Origin: Candidatus Hodarchaeota archaeon
Lineage (GTDB): Archaea; Asgardarchaeota; Heimdallarchaeia; Hodarchaeales; Hodarchaeaceae
DNA length: 37,146 nucleotides
NCBI GenBank assembly: GCA_016839785.1
Contig: JAEOTQ010000236.1
Span: 1 to 37,146, forward strand
Reading direction: 5' to 3'
Every line of letters starts with the position of its first letter. The first letter of the stretch is position 1. Of this stretch, positions 4,092-28,593 are shown piece by piece. The notes beneath the pieces were generated by a model. It did not search any database. It had not been told where the DNA came from and saw only the letters and a program-made list of their open reading frames with translations. A program made the position numbers and the translations under genes.

Positions 4092-5954
4092 ATGAAAGAA
4101 GCTTTTCTCGTAATTAATCCTGTTGCTGCTGGAGGACGTGTTAAAACGCTTTGGGAGAAAAAAATTAAGCCATTAGTCGACGAAACCGCGTTAGAATATG
4201 ATTTTGAATTCACTTCTTCCCCTCATCAAGCAATTGAAATTGCTAGAAGCCGTGTTAATGAGGGATACAAGGTTATTTGTTCATTAGGAGGGGATGGAAC
4301 AGCAAATGAGGTAATAAATGGGATTTTGAAGGCTGACAAGCCTGGAATTTTCTCTGCTATTCCTGTTGGAACTGGGAGTGATGTTCCTACTACTTATGGG
4401 ATACCTGAAAATGATTTAGAAGCAGCTGTGCAATGCTTAGTGAACGGTCAAAATAAAACCTTTGATGTAGGTTACTGTGAAACAGCTGATCGGTACTTCG
4501 CTGGAGTAGCTTCTATGGGCTTTGATGCACAAGTAACTCAAGTTGCTGATCGGACCCATAAAGGATCTAAAAGATTTTTAGGAGTAAGAAGTTATCAATT
4601 AGCTTTTGCCAGAACACTGACAAGATTGAAGCATTATAATCTGTTAATTAGGATTGATGGAGACCAAACAATCGCAGGCAAAAGAATGTTACTCGCTATA
4701 GGCAATGGAAAACGTTACGGGGCTGGAATGCATATCTGTCCTGATGCAGAAGTAACAGATGGCAAATTTACTGTAACTTCCGTGCAGAGAATGAGTCGAA
4801 TTACTCTCCTGCGATTTTTCCCTACAGTGTATGAGGGTGATCATCTCACACATAAAAGTGTTGAGACGTTTGAGGGGGAATCAATTCATGTGGATTCTAC
4901 CAAAAAAAAGAAATGTTTATATCAGGTAGATGGTGAAATCTTGGGATATCTCCCGGAGACTTTTGTAACAAAACCGAACCTCTTAACTGTACGTGTTCCA
5001 GATCCATGGATTTCTTATTCTGAAATTTGGGAAGGTAAATTGAGAGACGAGAAAGGATTCACTGATCCATTCACTGGGAATAAACTTCTTTTAGCTAAAC
5101 TCCTTTATCTTAACCCCATTTCGAATTATAAAAGAGGACTTGACTGGAGTCAGTCCAAAGAGGAAGTAAATGCAGAAAAGCAGTCAAAAGATGAAGTTAA
5201 AAGTATTAATGAAGAAAATTATTTGTATATGAAGGAAAAACATTTTTCGAAACGAGTGATATTTTTCTTGCTTAGAACTTTTTTCCAAACTCTCAGTTTA
5301 TCAGTTGCATTTACAGCTCCAATAGTTTTTCCATGGTTTTTTGATATCGTTTTTCCAAATCTACTAGCTCTAATTCCCCAAGAAATTGGTGCTTTTGTTC
5401 AGGAAGTAATTGATACCATACAATCTTTTTTTGTACTACCTTCTTGGGTAGAATCTATAATTAGGTTCTTTATGGATCTATCTGCAATCTTTAATCCCTT
5501 TCTTGTCTTTTCATTAATAATGATTTTCTTCAAACAGGTTGGAGCGCTCGCTGAGGAGGAATATCATGATCCATTCAGCTCTGTAAATGGAACACCAACA
5601 TCTACTGGTTATTTTTTGGATTCTATTAGAAGGAAGTTTAGTTTCGATTTTTCCTCCGCTACTCTGATCTTACTCATCGTTTCTAGTTGTGTATCTTTCT
5701 TTTTAGTAATTAGAAGGGCCAGAGGAATTTTATTTGAAGTGATGACAACTAAAGAAGAAATAAGGCACCGTGCAAATGTTAGAAAGGTTTTCCTGAAATA
5801 CTGCAAAGAGGGAACCTATACAGAAATTGATTATACCAAAAATCGACTCTCTGAATCAAAAAAGACAAAAACTTTTGCTAATCTAGTGAAATATGGACCA
5901 ATGGTTTCGTTAATTATCCCTGCAATACTCGCAATACTATTTATTCTGCTTTAA
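4092..5954 (+). CDS. Diacylglycerol/sphingosine-kinase-family lipid kinase fused to a C-terminal membrane domain
   Basis: A 620-residue protein. Residues 1-303 are a complete DAGK catalytic module of the YegS/BmrU/DgkB type: INPVAAGG at 8-15, the nucleotide-binding GGDGT at 66-70, GTGSD at 93-97, and a VDGE motif at 279-282. Such enzymes transfer phosphate from ATP to a lipid hydroxyl. Residues 304-386 are a polar linker. Residues 387-620 hold membrane segments at about 388-425, 452-482, 520-541 and 601-620, with a basic cytosolic stretch (541-600). Stand-alone family members are about 290-330 residues, so the C-terminal half is an extra domain that I do not recognise. It would anchor the kinase at its substrate. 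The enzyme could act on archaeal or other polyprenyl/glycerol lipids. ATG at 4092 has a CGGAG ribosome site. It appears monocistronic or leads into the next gene 24 bp downstream. Confidence 0.8.
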   Translation: MKEAFLVINPVAAGGRVKTLWEKKIKPLVDETALEYDFEFTSSPHQAIEIARSRVNEGYKVICSLGGDGTANEVINGILKADKPGIFSAIPVGTGSDVPTTYGIPENDLEAAVQCLVNGQNKTFDVGYCETADRYFAGVASMGFDAQVTQVADRTHKGSKRFLGVRSYQLAFARTLTRLKHYNLLIRIDGDQTIAGKRMLLAIGNGKRYGAGMHICPDAEVTDGKFTVTSVQRMSRITLLRFFPTVYEGDHLTHKSVETFEGESIHVDSTKKKKCLYQVDGEILGYLPETFVTKPNLLTVRVPDPWISYSEIWEGKLRDEKGFTDPFTGNKLLLAKLLYLNPISNYKRGLDWSQSKEEVNAEKQSKDEVKSINEENYLYMKEKHFSKRVIFFLLRTFFQTLSLSVAFTAPIVFPWFFDIVFPNLLALIPQEIGAFVQEVIDTIQSFFVLPSWVESIIRFFMDLSAIFNPFLVFSLIMIFFKQVGALAEEEYHDPFSSVNGTPTSTGYFLDSIRRKFSFDFSSATLILLIVSSCVSFFLVIRRARGILFEVMTTKEEIRHRANVRKVFLKYCKEGTYTEIDYTKNRLSESKKTKTFANLVKYGPMVSLIIPAILAILFILL

Positions 5955-15436: not shown

Positions 15437-16972
15437 TCAAAAAGGTAGATATTGTAGAAGAATCGAACCAAGGGGTAATAGGAGACCTGATAGAGCACTA
15501 AGCTTACCACCATAAGTTCGAACATAAAACATTAAATCGCGTGTGACGTCAACTGACAATGTTTCGGCGAATATACTACCCCGCTCTTTCTCGGAGATTG
15601 ATAGGTGAAATAAATGAGTCGAAAAATCCCTTCGCTCAACTGTAAACCAAGTGGCATCTCCGATCTGCAAAATTTGTGTTAGTAAACCTAAAATGTCTTG
15701 TGAGCCACCAGAAATAAAATCAAGTTTATGATTTTCAATTTGAATTTCCTGTGCTTCATCTAATGGTACTGAAATGTTTAGATCTTCCATAAAATGCTTT
15801 TGTGGTCCGCTTACTTTGAAATCTACCATCCTTTTCCTATCTCGGTAACGTGAAACATCCTTATTCAGAGCGAACATCAAAAATCGAAAGGGATTTTCAT
15901 TCCCAACTACCTTCTCTGGAGCCGCTACATTCACCCATATATCTTGATTATCAAGAAAATCTTCTAAATTATCAGTGAGTTCAATAATCAACCTATCGAT
16001 AGTCATAAAAACTTCAGGTATTCGTGATAATAATTGATCGAATATATCTGTAAGGATAGTAAAGGTTATCGCTGATTTTCCCCCCGAGCTAAATTCAGTA
16101 TATTTCCTTTCGTCAATTACTTCAATCATTTCGGATTTAAAGCTTTCAGAAGGTAGAAGTATGGGCATTCTCTTTTTTATGTAGAATAGTAAAAGTATCT
16201 TTTCTCGAGCGCGCTCTACGCGTGTAACAGAATCGAATCCATATTCGAATGCTGGATTTAAGGATGAGCGAATGGTTTCAGTCCACTCATCAAAACGCAT
16301 TTTGGTAATAGGATCTAAAAATGCTAAAACGGCATCGGTAAGGAGATTATCAAGGATAAGAGGGGTTTGACGTGGGTAATAATATTTTAGAAAGGCACCT
16401 ACTTCAAAACTAGGCTTTTCTGGAATTTTCAAAAGAAGAAGAATTCCAATCGCAATGAGTACAAGACCTATTGCACTAAAAATCAAGATGGGTCTAAGAA
16501 ATGCTCCTTCGAGAGCAGAAAAATCTTGTCCAGTAAGATCAATGACGAGTTTATTGATACCATCATTTTCTTGCAAGAAAGGTATAACCATAACAACCGT
16601 TAACATTAGTACCCAAGAAATAAATATTACACCCGCTATTATAGCAGAGTTTAATAGAACTTGTTTAGTAAAAGCAGTAACAGAACTGAAACCTTCTAGA
16701 CTGTCCACTGGAAATCCTTCTTCTGCTTTCTTCTGAGTCTCTACTTTAAAGCTCCTACTAACAAGAAGTCCATTAATTAAATATGTTAAAGAATTTCCGA
16801 ATAAAAGAGTCCATAATACTCCTGCTATTTTCATTTCACCAGCAGTAGGAAGAAAATTCCCTGAAATCATGCTCACTAAGATTAAAACCGGGAGCAATAC
16901 CATGAGAAATGGTCCAATTTTTCTGCAATACGTGTTCAGTATACTATTAACGCTCATAAAAAACCCAAACAT
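15437..16972 (-). CDS. Membrane protein of unknown function with large cytosolic domain
   Basis: A 511-residue protein I do not recognise. The N-terminal 190 residues hold four hydrophobic segments, about 20-38, 47-68, 108-134 and 158-184, with a polar loop at 73-103. Residues 190-485 are soluble, mixed alpha/beta, with several charged helices and no cysteine cluster, Walker or catalytic motif that I can name. The last 20 residues (LSGLLLPLGSILLQYLPF) are hydrophobic again. The first ATG (16972) or the ATG at 16954 (MSVNSILN) could be the start. It is divergent from the PadR-ABC operon across a 277-bp space, so it may share control with it. Possibly lineage-specific. Confidence 0.55.
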   Translation of the reverse strand: MFGFFMSVNSILNTYCRKIGPFLMVLLPVLILVSMISGNFLPTAGEMKIAGVLWTLLFGNSLTYLINGLLVSRSFKVETQKKAEEGFPVDSLEGFSSVTAFTKQVLLNSAIIAGVIFISWVLMLTVVMVIPFLQENDGINKLVIDLTGQDFSALEGAFLRPILIFSAIGLVLIAIGILLLLKIPEKPSFEVGAFLKYYYPRQTPLILDNLLTDAVLAFLDPITKMRFDEWTETIRSSLNPAFEYGFDSVTRVERAREKILLLFYIKKRMPILLPSESFKSEMIEVIDERKYTEFSSGGKSAITFTILTDIFDQLLSRIPEVFMTIDRLIIELTDNLEDFLDNQDIWVNVAAPEKVVGNENPFRFLMFALNKDVSRYRDRKRMVDFKVSGPQKHFMEDLNISVPLDEAQEIQIENHKLDFISGGSQDILGLLTQILQIGDATWFTVERRDFSTHLFHLSISEKERGSIFAETLSVDVTRDLMFYVRTYGGKLSALSGLLLPLGSILLQYLPF

Positions 16973-17198: not shown

Positions 17199-17219
17199 AT
17201 AAGCCATATATAGACTTAT
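17199..17219 (+). promoter_or_regulatory. PadR-ABC operon promoter with inverted repeat around the TATA box
   Basis: A TATA box CATATATAG (about 17205-17213) is enclosed by the inverted repeat ATAAG (17199-17203) and CTTAT (17215-17219). Transcription would begin near 17235, a few bases before the GTG start at 17250. A repressor binding this dyad would block TBP. The remaining 16973-17198 stretch is AT-rich and shows no gene. Confidence 0.45.
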
Positions 17220-17249: not shown

Positions 17250-17609
17250 GTGTCAATCGATTCACTCCTTCCTAAATGGACCACTGAGTTTAAAAAGGGT
17301 TATTCTAAGCCATTAATTCTGTTTACTCTTTCTAAAGTGGAAAAAAGTTACGCTTATCTCCTAACAAAAAAGATTCTTGAGCTAACTAAAGGTGAAATAT
17401 CCATTGCTGGGTCGAATATCTATCCAATGCTTTCTAAACTTGAAAGGGATAATTTGATTACTAGCCAACTCGATGAGTCTGAGAGAAAATTCTATACACT
17501 CACGCAGAAAGGTACGGACTTTCTTAAGAATCTAGAAACTGAGATTCAAAAATTCAATTCCATTATGCTCGAGATAATAAATCCAAATCAAAGTCACGGA
17601 GACATGTAA
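17250..17609 (+). CDS. PadR-family transcriptional regulator (short form)
   Basis: A 119-residue PadR-type winged-helix protein. The hallmark segment is ISIAGSNIYPMLSKLERDNLITSQLDESERKFY at about 50-82, where the NIYPMLSKLE portion is the recognition helix and ERKFYTLTQKG the wing. The dimerization helix is short. Unlike the larger PadR at 478 it lacks a C-terminal zinc ribbon. The start is GTG at 17250, because no ATG precedes the HTH. It heads a five-gene operon, with the RDD-domain gene starting 4 bp after its stop. It probably represses the operon through the dyad at the TATA box. Family call is firm, signal unknown. Confidence 0.85.
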   Translation: MSIDSLLPKWTTEFKKGYSKPLILFTLSKVEKSYAYLLTKKILELTKGEISIAGSNIYPMLSKLERDNLITSQLDESERKFYTLTQKGTDFLKNLETEIQKFNSIMLEIINPNQSHGDM

Positions 17610-17613
17610 GAAA

Positions 17614-18279
17614 ATGACAAAGAAGTATTCAGATCCTATTGATGGGTACATTTGGGAGGTAGGGAATTTATTACCCTATCCAGAGGAAATTAAAAGACCC
17701 GTTCTTGAAGATTTGAAAAAAGACGTTCAGGATGCAATGGGAGAAGATAAAAGACCGCCCGCTGTTGTCTTTGGATCCCCTGTTGACGTTGCCAAGAATG
17801 TAAGTTTGGCACAATCTTGGGGTATCACATCTGCTAGTTGGTCAAAGCGTATGGTAGCATCAGTGATAGATTCTACTATTATAGGCTTTTTATTTGCCAT
17901 AGCTATATTTATTAGGTTTGCTCTTCTCGGATTCGACATCGATAAAGTTGCTATACCATTCCATAATATGGAAATGGATTTTGGGTTTCTATTCATTAGC
18001 CTCCCAATTTTTGGATTTATGGTAGGCTATTTTATAATTTTAGAGCAAACATATTCGACTACCCTAGGGAAACGATTACTTGGATTGACTGTGGTCGATG
18101 AAACTGGTATTAAGATTTCGTGGAACCAATCAATACTGAGGAATTTATCTAAGATACCTCTAGTTGGATTCTTTCTTCTAATTGATCTTTTTGTAGGGAT
18201 TTTTTCGGAAAAAACACGTGGACGAAATCAACGGATGCTAGATTTTGTTGCAGGAACTAAGGTAATTCAAAATAAATAA
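17614..18279 (+). CDS. RDD-family membrane protein with HAAS-like N-terminus
   Basis: A 221-residue protein. Residues 8-72 form a soluble helical segment with PEEIKRPVLEDLKKDVQDAM and a FGSPVDVAKNV close, resembling the HAAS domain that accompanies PadR proteins. Residues 76-218 are an RDD domain: a charged SKRMVASVIDSTIIGF opening helix, TTLGKRLLGLTVVDETG at about 150-166, and the end motif RNQRMLDFVAGTKV. Three hydrophobic helices lie at about 86-107, 127-147 and 176-196. RDD proteins are thought to act in transport or signalling at the membrane. Four bp separate it from the PadR gene. Together they look like a PadR/membrane-sensor pair comparable to 478-2051 but with an RDD domain in place of seven helices. 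Confidence 0.75.
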   Translation: MTKKYSDPIDGYIWEVGNLLPYPEEIKRPVLEDLKKDVQDAMGEDKRPPAVVFGSPVDVAKNVSLAQSWGITSASWSKRMVASVIDSTIIGFLFAIAIFIRFALLGFDIDKVAIPFHNMEMDFGFLFISLPIFGFMVGYFIILEQTYSTTLGKRLLGLTVVDETGIKISWNQSILRNLSKIPLVGFFLLIDLFVGIFSEKTRGRNQRMLDFVAGTKVIQNK

Positions 18280-18309
18280 TTTATGATTATTATAATATAA
18301 GGTGTTTAC

Positions 18310-21300
18310 ATGGGATTAATATCAAGTATAAAGATTGCAAAGCGAGCATTGACTCGACGAAAGACCAAGAATTTCAGTGCTATTCTAGCGATTGCACTCG
18401 GTGTCACTTTAATGGTCGGTATACAAATCACTACCGATACGCTAGAGAATGCATTTCTCACTAGTCTTCTCATTCGCGAAGGAGAGGTTGATATTCGGTT
18501 TTCAAATGGTACAGGTGGATTTCTTTCCGCAGCTGATGAATCGAATATCTCAGCATTAGTTCCTGATGCTCTTGCTATCATGTCAGAACTTCAATCAAGC
18601 GGACCTGCTATGATCGGGTCTCAATTTGAACCATCGGTATCAATGGCAGGGATTCCCCTCGATTATAACGAAGCTTTTGGAAATTTTTATGATTGGGATA
18701 CTGGAGAAGTTATGGACATTAGCACGTACTTAGCTGATAATTCAAGTGTATTACTTTCGAGCAGTCTTGCTGAAGATATGGACATTAATAAGAGTACTGA
18801 ACTTCCTATCAACTTAACTACAGAATTCACATCTATTACGATTGTACCTAAACTAAATGAATCAACTGGTTTTCCAATTCTAAATGAAACAACAGGTTTT
18901 CCAATACTAGAGCTTCAGATTACGGAAGAAAGAGTTATTCTCAGTATAACAGAAATTTTTGATTCACGTCGTCCAGGGATAGGGGCTTCCTATCGGGGTG
19001 TTCTCTTCTCGTTAGATGCATATCAAGATTGGATGAGTCTCCAAGATCCTCTCCGAAATAAAGATATTATTGGTGCTTATTTAATTACTTATCAAACCGA
19101 TCACTTTAGTACTCCCATTGATGAAACTGTACTTCAAGAGAAGTTTGATGCCTTAGAAGAAAGGCTACCAGTTAAAATGGTAAATGATCAGGAAGTAAAT
19201 GTCTATGCTATTGATTCATCAAGGTTATTATACATCGGGCTTATTGATTTAATATTTGGCCTCATGTCGTCCTTTTTAAATGTTCTTGGCTTACTTATTA
19301 TAATCACTGGTATTCTCTTAATCACTAATGTGCAATTAATGAGCGTTGAAGATCGAGAATTCCAAACAGGAGTTCTACGAGCTGTCGGAGAGAAACGTGG
19401 AGGAATTTTCCGTTCAATGCTCTTTGAGACTCTTTTCCAAGGCATATTTGGAGGAATATTTGGTTTAGTTGGCGGATTGATCTTTGGTCAACTTGTTGCT
19501 TTATATTTAGTGAGTCTCTTTGGTTCAGGTAGTGCGAGTGTTCAACCTCTTGTAAAAGAAAGTGTTGTCATTTTCTCGGTTATTGTCGGAGTTATCCTTG
19601 GTATGTTGACAGGATTACTTCCAGCCCTTAGAGCTTCTCGCGTTAACATCGTGGAAGCACTGCGAGGCATCAAAATAACTTTTGAAGAAAAGTCAAGCCG
19701 CAATTTAGCTTTTATTGGTGTTCTACTCAGTTTTCTGGGTATCTTCTTCTTTCTTAACAATGGAATCATCAATAGGAATTTACAATATATCTGGTTAACT
19801 TCTGGATGGGATAACATTTCCGAGTGGGAAAATATTTTACTCGGAGCAGGATTTCTATTTACAGGGCTTGGAATAGTCCTTTCTCGCTATATTTCCCGAA
19901 CAAAGGCTTTTAATCTAACATCGATTGTCTTATGGGGAACACCTGTTTTCATGTTTGTTGTAGCAATGGGAAGTGGATGGATCACTGATATGAGTGGATC
20001 ATCTCTAAATATCCTCATCATTGCTATAATAGAAATTGTTATTGGTTCAGTGATGTTGGTTGGCATGAATCTTCCTTACATCATGCGCTTTCTCAGAAGC
20101 ACGTTGATAAAAATTCCAGGCGTAAAAGGTGTTGCTCAGGTTGCACCAGCATTGATTTCTTCCCACAAAACACGCTCCACACTAACTTTTGCAATCTTCG
20201 CGGTGGTTTTAACTCTAAATGTTACAGTTGCCAGTCTTGTGGCAACGAATATAGATAGTACAGTTGGACAATCAGAAGAAGACTCTCGTGGAATAGACTT
20301 ATATGTTCAACTCAGCGATCCTGAATACAATCTTGCTAATACTTCTTACACTACGGAGCTCTATCGAATAGATTCGGCTATTACTGATGTAATAGGGATG
20401 AAAACTTTCAAACCAGGAAGTACAGATTATACACGATATGTAGCTACAAAAAATCCATTTTCACCAGATTTCAATCCTCAATCGAATCTCTTACCTCTAG
20501 GTTTTGGAGAACTCCGATCAGACCAAATTCTTGGTGACGCACAAAACGCAACTGATGATGAAGATTGGCGATTTGACTTTTATATGTACAATTTACCCGA
20601 TGGTGTGAGACCAACCTCAATTGACCTTGGTGCAAGTGATGAAGTCCTTCTAGACCAGTCAAAACGAGCTTGGGATAAATTCTTCGATCCTGAATATAGA
20701 ATGACCGCATACAATATCACTTTAGATTTAGAGAATTTTGATATCAGTAATTTTGGGGGTTTTACAGCCTCAACTTTGGAGGAAGTTGACCCGATCCTTG
20801 ATATTAATGGGTCTGAAGTCCAATATCCAATTGTATTCACCGATTCATTCTTATTGCCTCTTGGAATGCCAATATGGATTCCCTTCAACACATCCCAATT
20901 TGGTTTTCCAGTTTATCAACCATTTACTATTGGAGGTAGTTTCGATTCGGATCGTGCTGGAGGTTGGCCTCTTTCACGAAGCATGCAAACAGAAGGATTT
21001 TCCAGTGGAAGTTTTTCTGGTACTCTGGGTACTGTTTATTTTCCAGAACGTTTTTCAAGCTATACTGATTTTTTCGGTATGGCAGATGAACTTTCGCCTG
21101 ATAAACGAGAACCAGATCAGTTTGATACTTACTTGATAAAAACTACTTATCCATTTGACAGTCCAGCTATCGAAGATGTTGCTCAATCAATAGAAGACTT
21201 CACTAATACAAAAGATTCTGGATATAGAAAGTTAATTGGTGATGAATTCATGGTTGCTACCGCTACATCTCTATATTCCAAGCTTGAAGCATCATTAGAA

Positions 21301-21699
21301 ATGATGGAACAAATGACTAATTTCCTGCAAATATATGTTAATTTTGGATTAATCATCGGTGCTGTAGGAATGGCTGTCATTTCTGTACGAAATGTTGCTG
21401 AAAGAAAAAGAGAAATCGGAATGATGAGAGCTATTGGTTTTCCTCGTTATCAGGTTATGACCGCAGCTCTTCTTGAACTAATGGTTCTTGGGTTTATTGG
21501 TTTGATTATCGGTGTGGTGAATGGTTTATTCGTTAATGTTGGATTTTCTAATATGCTGGATGTTCCTGTGGTTATACCGTGGGGAACAATTGGGGCGTAT
21601 TTATCATTCATTACCTTTATTGGGTTACTAGCGGGAGCAATTCCAGGCTGGGTAGCAAGTAGGATCCCCGCTGCAGAAGCACTGAGGTATGTAGGTTAA
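18310..21699 (+). CDS. Large FtsX/MacB-type ABC transporter permease
   Basis: A 1129-residue permease. A single N-terminal helix (23-42) precedes an extracytoplasmic MacB-like domain (about 50-300), then an FtsX core with helices across about 310-335, 360-395 and 415-440, and further helices at about 455-600. A second extracytoplasmic domain (about 640-1000) and a final three-helix FtsX core (1005-1129) follow, the latter with the coupling-region sequence RKREIGMMRAIGFPRYQV. The layout is that of a fused two-core ABC3 permease, acting as a lipoprotein- or lipid-handling mechanotransmission machine, not a classic channel. An exact 27-bp tandem duplication lies in the first extracytoplasmic domain at 18853-18906. 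The ribosome site AAGGTG is just before the ATG. It lies 30 bp after the RDD gene and 3 bp before the first ATPase. Confidence 0.85.
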   Translation: MGLISSIKIAKRALTRRKTKNFSAILAIALGVTLMVGIQITTDTLENAFLTSLLIREGEVDIRFSNGTGGFLSAADESNISALVPDALAIMSELQSSGPAMIGSQFEPSVSMAGIPLDYNEAFGNFYDWDTGEVMDISTYLADNSSVLLSSSLAEDMDINKSTELPINLTTEFTSITIVPKLNESTGFPILNETTGFPILELQITEERVILSITEIFDSRRPGIGASYRGVLFSLDAYQDWMSLQDPLRNKDIIGAYLITYQTDHFSTPIDETVLQEKFDALEERLPVKMVNDQEVNVYAIDSSRLLYIGLIDLIFGLMSSFLNVLGLLIIITGILLITNVQLMSVEDREFQTGVLRAVGEKRGGIFRSMLFETLFQGIFGGIFGLVGGLIFGQLVALYLVSLFGSGSASVQPLVKESVVIFSVIVGVILGMLTGLLPALRASRVNIVEALRGIKITFEEKSSRNLAFIGVLLSFLGIFFFLNNGIINRNLQYIWLTSGWDNISEWENILLGAGFLFTGLGIVLSRYISRTKAFNLTSIVLWGTPVFMFVVAMGSGWITDMSGSSLNILIIAIIEIVIGSVMLVGMNLPYIMRFLRSTLIKIPGVKGVAQVAPALISSHKTRSTLTFAIFAVVLTLNVTVASLVATNIDSTVGQSEEDSRGIDLYVQLSDPEYNLANTSYTTELYRIDSAITDVIGMKTFKPGSTDYTRYVATKNPFSPDFNPQSNLLPLGFGELRSDQILGDAQNATDDEDWRFDFYMYNLPDGVRPTSIDLGASDEVLLDQSKRAWDKFFDPEYRMTAYNITLDLENFDISNFGGFTASTLEEVDPILDINGSEVQYPIVFTDSFLLPLGMPIWIPFNTSQFGFPVYQPFTIGGSFDSDRAGGWPLSRSMQTEGFSSGSFSGTLGTVYFPERFSSYTDFFGMADELSPDKREPDQFDTYLIKTTYPFDSPAIEDVAQSIEDFTNTKDSGYRKLIGDEFMVATATSLYSKLEASLEMMEQMTNFLQIYVNFGLIIGAVGMAVISVRNVAERKREIGMMRAIGFPRYQVMTAALLELMVLGFIGLIIGVVNGLFVNVGFSNMLDVPVVIPWGTIGAYLSFITFIGLLAGAIPGWVASRIPAAEALRYVG
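18853..18906 (+). repeat. 27-bp in-frame tandem duplication in the permease gene
   Basis: Two adjacent 27-bp units differ at four or fewer positions. They encode LNESTGFPI and LNETTGFPI in the first extracytoplasmic domain, extending a loop by nine residues. It looks like a recent slippage or duplication event. Confidence 0.8.
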
Positions 21700-21702
21700 A
21701 CG

Positions 21703-22476
21703 GTGAAAGAAATGTCTCAAAACAAAGCAATAAAAATGGATACTCCCCAGATGTTTCATTCGAATGACTCTGAAGTTATTTTGAAGATTGAAGGACTCCA
21801 TAAGAGGTATAATGAAGGTAAATCAAACGAAGTTCACGCACTTCGAGGTATCGATCTAGAGGTTAAGAAAGGAGACATGATGGCGATTATGGGACCATCA
21901 GGATGTGGAAAAACCACACTACTCAATATGATTGGACATCTCGACAAAAATTCTGGTGGAGAAATTCATATCTCTAAAATAGATACAAACAAACTGTCTG
22001 ATGGCCAACAAACCGCATTTCGACGCGATAACATCGGCTTTATTTTTCAGCTCTTCAATCTCTTCCCCTTCCTTAGTGCAGTCGAGAATGTCGAAACTCC
22101 CCTTCTTTTGCAGGGTTACAATTCTGGGATAGCACGAGAACAAGCTAAAATGCTACTACGAGACCTTGGAATGGGTGACCGTCTGTATCACAGTCCTATG
22201 GAACTTTCAGGAGGCCAGCAACAGCGTGTAGCTGTAGCTAGAGCCCTCATTACTGATCCAGCCATCATATTAGGTGATGAACCTACTGGTGACCTGGATA
22301 GTACAACAAGTGCGGAAGTCATAACTCTATTCCGTCGTATCAATAAGATGAATAAACAAACTTTCGTGTTAGTAACACATAATCGATGGATAGCAGAAAA
22401 ATGTGACTACATAGTACATATGATAGATGGAAAAATTTCTAATATGGAAATGGGTCCATTTAAGGAGGAAAAATAA
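21703..22476 (+). CDS. ABC transporter ATP-binding protein (LolD/MacB/FtsE-like), first ATPase
   Basis: A 257-residue ATPase with a full set of motifs: Walker A GPSGCGKTT at 64-72, Q-loop Q116 (FQLFNLFPFLS), signature LSGGQQQR at 168-175, Walker B IILGDEPTGDLD at 188-199 (catalytic E193) and the H-loop H226. These define the MacB/LolD class that drives FtsX-type permeases. Two starts are possible, GTG at 21703 or ATG at 21712; the GGTGA at 21702-21706 spaces better to the ATG. It begins 3 bp after the permease stop and its own stop overlaps the next start by one base (TAATG). It should pair with the permease, either as homodimer or with the next gene product. Confidence 0.9.
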   Translation: MKEMSQNKAIKMDTPQMFHSNDSEVILKIEGLHKRYNEGKSNEVHALRGIDLEVKKGDMMAIMGPSGCGKTTLLNMIGHLDKNSGGEIHISKIDTNKLSDGQQTAFRRDNIGFIFQLFNLFPFLSAVENVETPLLLQGYNSGIAREQAKMLLRDLGMGDRLYHSPMELSGGQQQRVAVARALITDPAIILGDEPTGDLDSTTSAEVITLFRRINKMNKQTFVLVTHNRWIAEKCDYIVHMIDGKISNMEMGPFKEEK

Positions 22477-24305
22477 TGAAGATATTTACAGCCGCTCTAA
22501 TTGATAAACCATTGAGAACTCAAAATGCCGAATTAAGGAAAAATATGGCTTCTGACCTGAAAAAACTTCTGGGTGTAAAGCGGAGTGCGATTGCAAGTCA
22601 AGAATTGAATTCTTTCATTTTCCTGTCAGCAGATAAAGCAAATGGAAGTATGCATCCAGAATTGGTAGAAAAAATTGAGAAAGGAGCGTTGTTCAAACGA
22701 TTTATGTCCTATAATAAGACTAATGAGTCAAAATTTCGTGATCTCTTGAAGAATAATCAAGAGCTTCATGAAACTTCACAAATTGTCAAAAATTTCATAA
22801 AAGAAATCGATAGTGGATTACCTAGAAAGTTAGATCAACAATTAAAGAAAGTTAACACAGATTTACCTCGCATTTTCTGTGAATTAAGCACTCGAAGTTT
22901 TATTACCCTGTGGGACATTGAAGAAGTAAAAGAATACCGATTTTATCTTTCTGGGTTTGATTTTCCTCTCTTTTGTGGGTCTACTGCAGATGTTTCCCTT
23001 AACATTGGGAAAATTGTTGATCAGTTATTGATAGCGAACTTTTTTGTGACATTTTTGAAACCAACTATCCAGCGTTTGGATGAAATGAGCAATGTATTGT
23101 TCAGACTTGAGAAAGAAATTCTCAAACAACATTATTCGACAACAAACAAAAAACTACAATCCAAATTCGACTTATTCTTGCGTATCTTAATAGCGAAACT
23201 AAGTGCACTACAGGAGCTTGAAAATCTTATTTACCGAATTTTCAACCTCTTTGAGATTCCTAGAATGTACCTTACGCAGTACAACCTTGAAAGTGATTTT
23301 GGAGATTTTAATGCAACCATTGCTCGAATTGCCGAAGAAATATCTGAAGGAAAGGTCAAATTACATACTGTTAGCGAGCTTATTCAAAAATGTCAACTCT
23401 GTTTCCGTGATTATCTTGATCAGGGTGTTAACGGTGTCACATTTGTTGATTCCAAAAAAGAATTTCAAGAAGGACTGCGAGCTATGGCTGAAATTAGTGT
23501 GGACTTATTTGTTGAAGCAGAAATGCTCAAAATTTGGGCTGATTATTTTGGTTCCGATTTACCTTTCTTTAGTTTTAATGCACAGCTCTTAAGTGTTGCA
23601 GAAACCGCAGCAGAAAAGATTGACAAAGACACCATTTTAGCAGTACGAGGCCTCTTCAAAAACTATAATTTAGGCCGAAATACAGTCTATGCCATTAGAG
23701 GTGTTAATCTCGACATAAAAGAAGGAGAATTCGTTGCAATCGTCGGTTCTTCAGGAGCAGGAAAAACAACGCTTTTAAACTGTATGGCGAGTCTCGACTC
23801 CCCAGATGCTGGTAGTGTCTACTTCCGTGGTAAAAATCTACATTCAATGAGTGATTCTGCGAAATCAGAAGCACGATTACTTGAAATGGGATTTATTTTC
23901 CAAAGTTACGCTTTACTCCCACACTTCAATACTCGAGAGAATGTTGCGTTACCAGCTGATCTAGCAGGAGGTTTAAATAAAGAGGTCAAAAAGCGAATAG
24001 AGGATCTTCTCATCGGTGTAGGTATTGATCAACAAGCAAAACAATTCCCTGCTCAGCTCAGTGGTGGTCAAATGCAAAGAGTGGCCATTGCACGTGCTCT
24101 AACAAATCAACCTTCTATCATTTTTGCTGATGAACCAACTGGTGATCTTGATAGTGGTACAGGGAAACAAGTCATGGATTTGTTGAAGAAATTCCACGAA
24201 GAAACGGGGACCACGATTGTAGTTATCACTCACGAAGAAGATATCGCTGCTTATGCACAAAGGCAGATCTTAATGGAAGATGGAATTGTCACTAGAAGAA
24301 AATAA
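22476..24305 (+). CDS. ABC ATPase with a large unassigned N-terminal helical domain
   Basis: A 609-residue protein. The C-terminal 225 residues (about 386-609) are a complete MacB/LolD-class ATPase: Walker A GSSGAGKTT (424-432), Q476, LSGGQMQR (528-535), Walker B with E553 and H586. The N-terminal 380 residues match no family I recognise. They are soluble and largely helical, with heptad-like stretches (about 196-260 and 330-360), a C-x-L-C pair at 306-309 and no membrane helix. Ordinary members of this ATPase class are about 220-260 residues, so this is a large N-terminal addition. A strong AAGGAGGAA site precedes the ATG, which shares one base with the preceding stop. It is the last gene of the operon. 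A heterodimer with the first ATPase on the fused permease is plausible; the extension could be regulatory or bind a cytosolic partner. Confidence 0.8.
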   Translation: MKIFTAALIDKPLRTQNAELRKNMASDLKKLLGVKRSAIASQELNSFIFLSADKANGSMHPELVEKIEKGALFKRFMSYNKTNESKFRDLLKNNQELHETSQIVKNFIKEIDSGLPRKLDQQLKKVNTDLPRIFCELSTRSFITLWDIEEVKEYRFYLSGFDFPLFCGSTADVSLNIGKIVDQLLIANFFVTFLKPTIQRLDEMSNVLFRLEKEILKQHYSTTNKKLQSKFDLFLRILIAKLSALQELENLIYRIFNLFEIPRMYLTQYNLESDFGDFNATIARIAEEISEGKVKLHTVSELIQKCQLCFRDYLDQGVNGVTFVDSKKEFQEGLRAMAEISVDLFVEAEMLKIWADYFGSDLPFFSFNAQLLSVAETAAEKIDKDTILAVRGLFKNYNLGRNTVYAIRGVNLDIKEGEFVAIVGSSGAGKTTLLNCMASLDSPDAGSVYFRGKNLHSMSDSAKSEARLLEMGFIFQSYALLPHFNTRENVALPADLAGGLNKEVKKRIEDLLIGVGIDQQAKQFPAQLSGGQMQRVAIARALTNQPSIIFADEPTGDLDSGTGKQVMDLLKKFHEETGTTIVVITHEEDIAAYAQRQILMEDGIVTRRK

Positions 24306-26682: not shown

Positions 26683-28593
26683 TTAACGAGGATTTTGGCT
26701 ATAAAAAGACTCTTCTGTAAACTCCCAAGTAAGTATGATAATACCACCTTCGCTTTCCATGGTAGCGTTTGTCGCTAGTCCACTTGCGGCAAAATCCTTC
26801 AGTAAATGAATAGCTGCCGCATTTCCCATTATAGTTTCAGTAATAAAACAAGTAATATTTAGTTCTAAAGCTCGTTTTGTTAGATAGCGAAGGAATTCCC
26901 TTGCTAATCCTTTGTTTCGATATTCCTCATGGACTAACAATGAAATCTCAGCTGTCTTGAAGTCATGTAAAATAAAGAAATGGCCAGTGCCAATGATCTT
27001 TTCTGTTGAGATTGGACCTAGGAATGCAGCTATACCCATATCCTGACTAAAATTTATATTTGCTTCTTTTTGTGCTAAACTGTGGGGTAGAGCCCTGATA
27101 GCACTAAAATATCGGGAATACCTACTTTTTTCCGAGACAGAATAGAAGAATCTCCTGAGTTTATCTTCATCACTTGCCAGAATCGGGCGAATGCGCACAC
27201 TAGGCTCCCCGTTCCTCAGTGTGAAGTGTTCTTGGACTTCCATTGGATACATTAGATGTTTCGAGGGATCAGAGTAAATCTGATCTTGGTACATATAGTT
27301 GAGCTCCTTGGCTCTATTAAATAGCTCTTCTCGGAACTTAGGATGCGCTAATTCAATCATAGATAAGACTCTTTCCCGAAGTGAGGCACCATGAAGATAA
27401 GCTATTCCATATTCAGTCACAACATACTCGATATCTGCTCTAGTTATTGCAACTCCCGCGCCTGAACATAAATGAGAGACAATTCGGGAATGTTTACCAT
27501 CACTGGATGTCGAGGGAAGAGCAATAATCGTTTTTCCCCCGGGCGAAAGTTGGGCACCACGATGGAGGTCAACTGCACCCCCAATTCCACTATATAGATA
27601 TGTTCCCAAGCTATCAGCTGCTACTTGTCCTGTTAAGTCTATTTCTAAAGCAGAATTTATTGTCACCATTTTATAATTTTTAGCCACAATATTAGGATCC
27701 AAAACATAATCGGAAGGGTAAAAATGAAAATCTGGGTTATCATTTATAGTATTATATAAACGTTGAGTCCCCATACAGAATGTAGCGACTGTTTTGCCAG
27801 TGTGAATAGTTTTCTTTGCATTAGTTACCACCCCACAATCTAATAATTCCAAAACGGAATCAGTAATAAGTTCAGAATGAATTCCAAGATCTTTTTTTTC
27901 ACAGAGATATTTTGACATTGCGTTGGTAACATTGCCTACACCTATTTGTAGTGTTGACTCATTATCAATCAAACTAGATACATTTCGGGCAACTTTCTCA
28001 ATCTGAGGTGTGATCGAGGGTGGTTTCCATTCTGTCAGAGGACTACTATTCTGAACCATATAGTCGATGTCAGAAGTATGAACAAAACTATTACCATGTG
28101 TCACAGGCATTTCAGGATTAACTTCAGCTATTACGATCTCTGAATTTTCGACTGCAGCCTTTGTAAGATCAACACTTATCCCTAAGCTCACATAACCAGA
28201 TTTATCAGGAACAGAGGTTTGAACAAGGGCAACATCGATTGGTAAGAGTTTCTTTCGGAAAAGATCGGGTATCTTTTGGGATGATACTGGGGTATAGTCT
28301 GCTCTTCCTTCTCTTACAGCTTGACGGATATTATCAGTAATAAATACGCTGTTGTATCTAAAACGTTTTGTATATTGTTCTTTCACGTAGGGGGCTGGGC
28401 CATAAGAAATCACATGATAAATTTCATTATCCTCTGTTTGAATCTCCATCTGTGAAAGATGTAACAATAGAAGTCTGGGCTCTGCACAACCTGTACCAAT
28501 GAAAAGTCTATCACCTGGTTTAATGTGTGAAAGGGCAGCATTGGGCGTAGTGTAATTGGGTTTGTCTGGATCAACTGGTTGGTACGTGTACAA
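26683..28593 (-). CDS. Acetyl-CoA hydrolase/4-hydroxybutyrate CoA-transferase fused to a GNAT acetyltransferase
   Basis: A 636-residue two-domain protein. Residues 15-455 are a CoA-transferase of the acetyl-CoA hydrolase/AbfT/Cat1 group, with GVGN at 218-221 and GIHSEL at about 237-242. Its E241 corresponds by position to the glutamate that forms the enzyme-CoA thioester. VVTEYGIAYLHG at 391-402 is another group signature. Residues about 465-625 are a GNAT domain, with the acetyl-CoA-binding motif EEYRNKGLAREFL. Such fusions are annotated in bacteria and archaea, so the architecture is not new. The GNAT part may acylate a protein using the same acyl-CoA pool. The frame begins at TTG 28593, but AAGGTGG abuts it with no spacer, so the true start is uncertain by a few residues. 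It could connect organic-acid CoA activation to the nearby TCA genes. Confidence 0.8.
   Translation of the reverse strand: MYTYQPVDPDKPNYTTPNAALSHIKPGDRLFIGTGCAEPRLLLLHLSQMEIQTEDNEIYHVISYGPAPYVKEQYTKRFRYNSVFITDNIRQAVREGRADYTPVSSQKIPDLFRKKLLPIDVALVQTSVPDKSGYVSLGISVDLTKAAVENSEIVIAEVNPEMPVTHGNSFVHTSDIDYMVQNSSPLTEWKPPSITPQIEKVARNVSSLIDNESTLQIGVGNVTNAMSKYLCEKKDLGIHSELITDSVLELLDCGVVTNAKKTIHTGKTVATFCMGTQRLYNTINDNPDFHFYPSDYVLDPNIVAKNYKMVTINSALEIDLTGQVAADSLGTYLYSGIGGAVDLHRGAQLSPGGKTIIALPSTSSDGKHSRIVSHLCSGAGVAITRADIEYVVTEYGIAYLHGASLRERVLSMIELAHPKFREELFNRAKELNYMYQDQIYSDPSKHLMYPMEVQEHFTLRNGEPSVRIRPILASDEDKLRRFFYSVSEKSRYSRYFSAIRALPHSLAQKEANINFSQDMGIAAFLGPISTEKIIGTGHFFILHDFKTAEISLLVHEEYRNKGLAREFLRYLTKRALELNITCFITETIMGNAAAIHLLKDFAASGLATNATMESEGGIIILTWEFTEESFYSQNPR

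Follow-up and report, generated by a model that had tools for sequence, protein, structure and literature searches.

A conserved, uncharacterized type VII ABC variant with two ATPases and a lineage-specific domain in Heimdallarchaeia

The window analyzed here, a stretch of 37,146 nucleotides from a contig of the 4.04-Mb, 248-contig assembly of a Candidatus Hodarchaeota archaeon, contains a plus-strand operon of five genes (Table 1). They encode a PadR-type regulator, an RDD membrane protein, a double-core FtsX-type permease and two ATP-binding cassette (ABC) ATPases, named NBD1 and NBD2 after their nucleotide-binding domains; NBD2 carries a long N-terminal extension, termed EXT. The system represents a real and conserved version of the type VII ABC machines that is uncharacterized and possesses a domain specific to its lineage. 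All five open reading frames (ORFs) are intact, with spacings of 4 bp (PadR/RDD), 30 bp (RDD/permease) and 3 bp (permease/NBD1) and a 1-bp overlap of NBD1 and NBD2. The original prediction, made from the letters of this DNA, had given the same ORFs, lengths, gaps and overlap, and its assignment of the five products agrees with the Pfam matches obtained for each of them. The TATA-like box in front of PadR sits in a block common to the orthologous upstream region of genome G001 and in part to two others.

Table 1. Features of the operon, with positions in the window
Feature	Position	Strand	Evidence
TATA-like box CATATATAG, 5' of PadR (putative function)	17205..17213	+	Sequence and alignment of upstream regions
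PadR-type winged-helix regulator, 119 aa	17250..17609	+	Pfam PF03551, E 3e-14
RDD membrane protein, 221 aa, HAAS-like N-terminus with GSP motif	17614..18279	+	Pfam RDD, 4.8e-19
Double-core FtsX-type permease, 1129 aa	18310..21699	+	Two FtsX domains, Pfam PF02687, 2.4e-30
Permease N-half coupling-helix region, around SVEDREFQTGVLRAVG	19342..19392	+	Kept in orthologues, differs from C-half
Permease C-half coupling-helix region, around RNVAERKREIGMMRAIG	21388..21438	+	Kept in orthologues, differs from N-half
NBD1, LolD-like ATPase, 257 aa	21703..22476	+	ABC_tran, 2.8e-33; intact catalytic motifs
NBD2, extended ATPase, 609 aa	22476..24305	+	ABC_tran, 3.9e-34
EXT, N-terminal extension of NBD2, residues 1-375	22476..23600	+	No Pfam match, kept across the class
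NBD2 ATPase domain, residues 387-609	23634..24305	+	ABC_tran match, intact catalytic motifs

The permease shows 12 hydrophobic segments in hydropathy analysis, arranged as four, four linker segments and four, with two large extracytosolic regions. The stretch between transmembrane (TM) segments 1 and 2 comprises about 260 residues in one core and 355 in the other. An internal duplication is detectable (E 1e-12), and the permease profile matches the solved structures of MacB, YtrF, LolE, LolC, LolF, YbbP and FtsX in the PDB; a match to MacB_PCD is sub-threshold (E 0.0028). The two FtsX domains, the 4+4+4 topology, the duplication and these profile matches place the system, almost certainly, in the type VII (MacB/LolCDE/FtsEX/YbbAP) superfamily. 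The coupling helices of the N- and C-terminal halves are unlike each other, and each is conserved (EDREFQTGVLRAVG and ERKREIGMMRAIG).

The conserved core of the system consists of the permease (1,000 to 1,150 residues), the plain LolD-like NBD1 and NBD2 with an EXT of ∼375 residues. The class is taken here as Heimdallarchaeia (n = 59 genomes), as the titles of the named contigs bearing EXT indicate; the nearest of these, in a search with close EXT sequences, are metagenome-assembled genomes of Candidatus Hodarchaeota or Heimdallarchaeota, including Candidatus Hodarchaeum mangrovi, which marks the source organism as a Hodarchaeum-like Asgard archaeon. Copy numbers are based on searches. An alignment-based model detects EXT in 47 class genomes and in two more from elsewhere in the phylum, and a family-specific query adds G021 and G019, giving 49 of the 59; within the genus of the window, 9 of 12 genomes contain it, the window's own included. 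An orthologous permease is present in 54 of the 59 genomes, in G025 as a fragment, and none of the 49 with EXT lacks it; leaving aside short contig fragments, these orthologues score at least 270 bits, compared to no more than ∼154 bits for other FtsX permeases within the class. In two of the five genomes with a permease but no detected EXT, G012 and G049, the contigs stop at or just past the permease, and the remaining three belong to family f3, in which the genes of the system lie scattered. Completeness is 70 to 87% in the five genomes that lack both genes. NBD1 adjoins NBD2 in 41 of 44 inspected loci; most of these pairs overlap by 4 bases or lie a few bases apart. Between permease, NBD1, NBD2 and EXT, the correlation of pairwise distances is 0.94 to 0.97, much of it due to shared descent.

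The full order PadR-RDD-permease-NBD1-NBD2 is found in five genomes of one genus (the window, G001, G004, G006 and G008), with the front of the operon hidden by contig ends in G002, G009 and G011. Paralogous three-gene cassettes lacking PadR and RDD are present both in this genus and in further families. The five-gene operon is therefore the genus-level version of a class-wide three-gene unit, so that the gene order proposed for a check in relatives holds across the class for its core and in a single genus for its front. Two divergent cases were also seen. In G010 (L025, 4364-9718), an NBD2 orthologue of 930 residues with a C-terminal coiled-coil and winged-helix-like tail adjoins a truncated permease of 599 residues, with PadR and RDD absent; this copy may have decayed or been fused, or the assembly may be wrong here. 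G227, outside the class, encodes an EXT-bearing ATPase (L088, 204-2099), and no orthologous permease was found in that genome; this gene may have been transferred, or its contig may be wrongly binned.

Among the NCBIfam models, both ATPases are closest to LolD, and profile matches in the PDB are to MJ0796 (the best match for NBD1), MacB, LolD and YbbA. Both proteins of the window contain an intact Walker A motif, signature motif, Walker B motif with catalytic glutamate, D-loop and switch histidine. A regular-expression scan for these motifs over 44 loci left most of its blanks at the His-loops of NBD1, where an alignment of ten NBD1 sequences shows an invariant V-T-H. Seven strongly conserved positions separate NBD1 from NBD2. 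A fixed phenylalanine/tyrosine difference, F118 in NBD1 versus Y478 in NBD2, is located two residues after the Q-loop glutamine. Tyr90 of FtsE occupies the same position, within the region reported to form the cavity for the coupling helix of FtsX (PMC7468199). The differing coupling helices and the residue differences between the ATPases fit, without proving, the assignment of one ATPase to each permease half, and NBD1 and NBD2 probably form a heterodimer on one permease.

In a tree with outgroup ATPases, the extended NBD2 sequences group together in a single clade (100/97), and the NBD1 sequences in a separate one (99/83). The nearest relatives outside the class, the Asgard group f26, have homologous permeases of ∼990 residues, mostly with one plain ATPase directly upstream, and NBD1 groups with this single ATPase with moderate support (95/75). 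Given these single-ATPase permeases and this grouping, it was most likely in the stem of the class that the second ATPase, with its extension, joined the system, by duplication or by recruitment. NBD1 and NBD2 appear as sisters (94/86) in an earlier tree without an outgroup ATPase; as this grouping is lost once outgroup ATPases enter the tree, a simple duplication was rejected as the settled origin.

The position of NBD1 beside the outgroup ATPase, as if it were the original motor, also agrees with a different division of labor, in which NBD2 would act as an ATP-using regulator of a complex of permease and NBD1 homodimer and would not be part of the motor. The large size of EXT and the location of NBD2 away from the permease in family f3 point in the same direction. 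Such a role is nevertheless quite unlikely, as NBD2 shows the intact catalytic motifs and the conserved Q-loop region that a permease-bound ATPase would be expected to have and is kept alongside the permease across the class.

The extended NBD2 is neither a chance product nor a frameshift artifact, since an intact, homologous ORF is present at 44 loci. Residues 1 to 375 match no Pfam family at E≤1, and the EXT family as a whole yields scattered weak Pfam matches only. A PDB sequence search of EXT returned coiled-coil bias only, and with the EXT model Foldseek found no PDB structure with E<0.2 and no entry of a viral structure library with E<0.02. A CorA-like or spike-like identity was rejected, the PDB sequence matches being coiled-coil bias and the Foldseek E values exceeding 0.2. 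As far as Pfam, PDB sequence search and Foldseek can detect, EXT thus corresponds to none of the known domains, which answers a question attached to the original prediction.

The AlphaFold model of EXT (pLDDT 74, pTM 0.72, seven close sequences) suggests a ferredoxin-like core followed by a long helical bundle. The α/β part (residues ∼1 to 170) has the ferredoxin-like order strand-helix-strand-strand, helical insertion and strands, and weakly resembles small ferredoxin-like proteins (Foldseek E of about 0.5 to 1). The bundle (residues ∼177 to 359) is built of four helices of 33 to 41 residues. An earlier description of the extension as a large soluble helical domain agrees with this bundle and with the lack of a TM segment in hydropathy analysis, and leaves out the α/β part. 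EXT is presumably cytosolic, because it is fused to an ATPase. Its most conserved positions, weighted over 44 sequences, are F47, N45, D361, W146, position 240 (mostly Gly), D182 and E43, which fall in both the α/β and the helical parts. A control or docking module is the function we lean toward for EXT.

Among characterized systems, YbbAP-TesA of E. coli (PMC12646458) likewise combines two FtsX cores and two extracytosolic domains in one polypeptide with a LolD-like ATPase, and its YbbP is detected by the permease profile (9ge6, E 7e-7). It differs in its two identical YbbA subunits from a single gene, the lack of EXT, the lipid-hydrolase partner TesA and a linker of two helices compared to four here by hydropathy; the operon contains two ATPase genes of separate clades. 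LolCDE resembles the system in placing an asymmetric permease pair in one complex, with LolE and LolC both matched by profile, but has two separate permease genes and serves the outer-membrane lipoprotein pathway. Its ATPases are identical LolD subunits. MacB, YtrEF and BceAB share the FtsX-type permease, the mechanotransmission family and the ATPase similarity, and differ in their homodimeric ATPases; in addition, the MacB ATPase is fused to a single-core permease, and the Bce type has one extracytosolic domain (PMC11466899). Divergent, uncharacterized Heimdall ABC3 systems are classified as TCDB 3.A.1.157 (PMC7997004). They come from the same archaeal group and the same permease superfamily, and this family may include the permease of the window; in its available text, that account names neither two ATPases nor an extension.

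No description of a two-ATPase type VII system was found in an open-access library of papers. Two ATPase genes beside one FtsX-type permease, without EXT, are encoded at three other loci of the window's own genome (L097, 5586-9642; L099, 3678-5769; L100, 1100-5798). The two-ATPase layout that had appeared unfamiliar in the original prediction is thus shared by these loci, with EXT particular to this operon; the asymmetry of the ATPases may therefore be a wider theme, and EXT is the distinguishing feature. Genome G008 likewise encodes an FtsX-type permease with two different ATPase genes and no EXT (L024, 11975-16762). In the type represented by L100 and L024, the second ATPase has 324 to 335 residues.

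The identical ATPases of the known systems raise the alternative that NBD1 and NBD2 form separate homodimers on the same permease, with the EXT-bearing NBD2 used under specific conditions. The motif set of each ATPase would suffice for a symmetric dimer. The type VII systems of B. subtilis, eight in number, were all modeled with identical ATPases (PMC11466899), and two identical YbbA subunits serve one double-core permease in YbbAP (PMC12646458). Separate homodimers are nonetheless unlikely here: NBD1 and NBD2 are paired one-to-one in one gene cluster throughout the class, the coupling helices of the two permease halves differ, and none of the permease loci seen has NBD2 as its only ATPase.

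PadR regulators often control export genes. Together with the family resemblance seen in the LolD match of NCBIfam and the PDB profile matches, this would also suit an ordinary MacB-like exporter of drugs or peptides, in which the additional domain is mundane and the mechanism is no different. We consider this very unlikely, as a lineage-specific domain and two distinct ATPases kept class-wide are unusual for a dispensable drug pump, and neither a MacA-type adaptor nor a TolC-like or other outer-membrane partner is encoded in the operon or represented among those other proteins of the window that were scanned. A defense system was rejected as well, PADLOC giving generic ABC ATPase matches only.

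The front of the operon is similar to the PadR-HAAS dyad, which has been suggested to act in membrane stress in place of two-component signaling; HAAS is also known from fusions with FtsX-type proteins (PMC11237479). As in the dyad, a PadR gene adjoins a membrane protein with a helical N-terminus and a GxP motif, which is kept in 5 of 5 orthologues; the RDD protein differs in lacking a HAAS profile match. The HAAS-like label given to it earlier is thus backed by the motif and not by the Pfam model or the profile comparison. The same Pfam model does recognize a HAAS protein elsewhere in the window (E 4e-9 to 1.5e-8); its gene comes after one for PadR (478-2051), and the two constitute a canonical PadR-HAAS dyad in an Asgard archaeon. 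In G013, from another family, genes for PadR and for a helical protein with a GxP motif are found downstream of a three-gene cassette (L090, 9345-10201), echoing the PadR-RDD front.

On balance, the system is best explained as a type VII mechanotransmitter with an NBD1-NBD2 heterodimer and EXT as a cytosolic module. Superfamily, gene set, conservation, intact motifs and separate ATPase clades are read from the sequences. The heterodimeric motor of the original prediction is favored by the separate, co-inherited ATPase clades, the differing coupling helices and the intact motifs of both ATPases; the dimer itself, the role of EXT, force transmission and regulation are inferred. One double-core permease would take the place of the usual permease dimer, and NBD1 and NBD2 would most likely serve one half each, with two ATPs sandwiched between them, and pull on coupling helices that differ from each other. 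The extracytosolic domains would close and open with ATP binding and hydrolysis; by this movement they could either take lipids, lipoproteins or other hydrophobic compounds out of the outer leaflet or power a partner on the extracytosolic side. EXT would sense a ligand or dock a partner in the cytosol and thereby gate the motor. In the one genus with the complete operon, PadR and the membrane-bound RDD protein would most likely switch the operon on under membrane stress.

Several observations weigh against this explanation. The structure model of the permease reached a pLDDT of 34 and was not used, which leaves the extracytosolic folds unconfirmed. EXT is the least conserved part, with a mean distance of 0.74 compared to 0.39 to 0.44 for the ATPase domains, and its proposed role is deduced from position and conservation. 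Even at E=10, the RDD protein gives no match to the Pfam HAAS model, and the HAAS profile comparison with it is not significant. In family f3 (L094, L109 and L137 to L142), the three genes are dispersed: the extended NBD2 adjoins an amidohydrolase, an NBD1-like gene adjoins an MFS transporter, and the permease is encoded elsewhere, so that tight linkage is not obligatory. ORFs of ∼500 residues beside the NBD1-like and NBD2 genes of f3 had been considered as a split permease and were rejected, since Pfam identifies them as the MFS transporter and the amidohydrolase.

Other genes of the window were also noted. A membrane protein of 511 residues without a Pfam match is encoded divergently from the operon (15437-16972, minus strand); G001 contains two tandem ORFs of similar length in the same place (L021, 11638-14760), which are not seen in G004, G006 and G008. 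A YegS/diacylglycerol-kinase-like protein (4092-5954) has ∼310 additional C-terminal residues without a Pfam match, and an acetyl-CoA hydrolase/transferase is fused with a GNAT acetyltransferase domain (26683-28593, minus strand).

The characterized type VII systems that can be checked all have identical ATPases. Two distinct ATPases would allow a test of whether the two ATP sites and the two permease halves have different tasks, and EXT offers a defined target for structure determination. A more far-reaching proposal, which we regard as doubtful, is that EXT is a new domain from the Heimdallarchaeia ancestor that links a heterodimeric type VII motor to a signal or structure in the cytosol, with force crossing the membrane only when EXT is engaged. 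Hodarchaeales is the eukaryote-related order. The class Heimdallarchaeia contains the closest known relatives of eukaryotes (PMC10307638), and the system is a conserved envelope machine of this class. If EXT does control the motor, this would be a new control principle for the type VII superfamily, in the archaea closest to eukaryotes.

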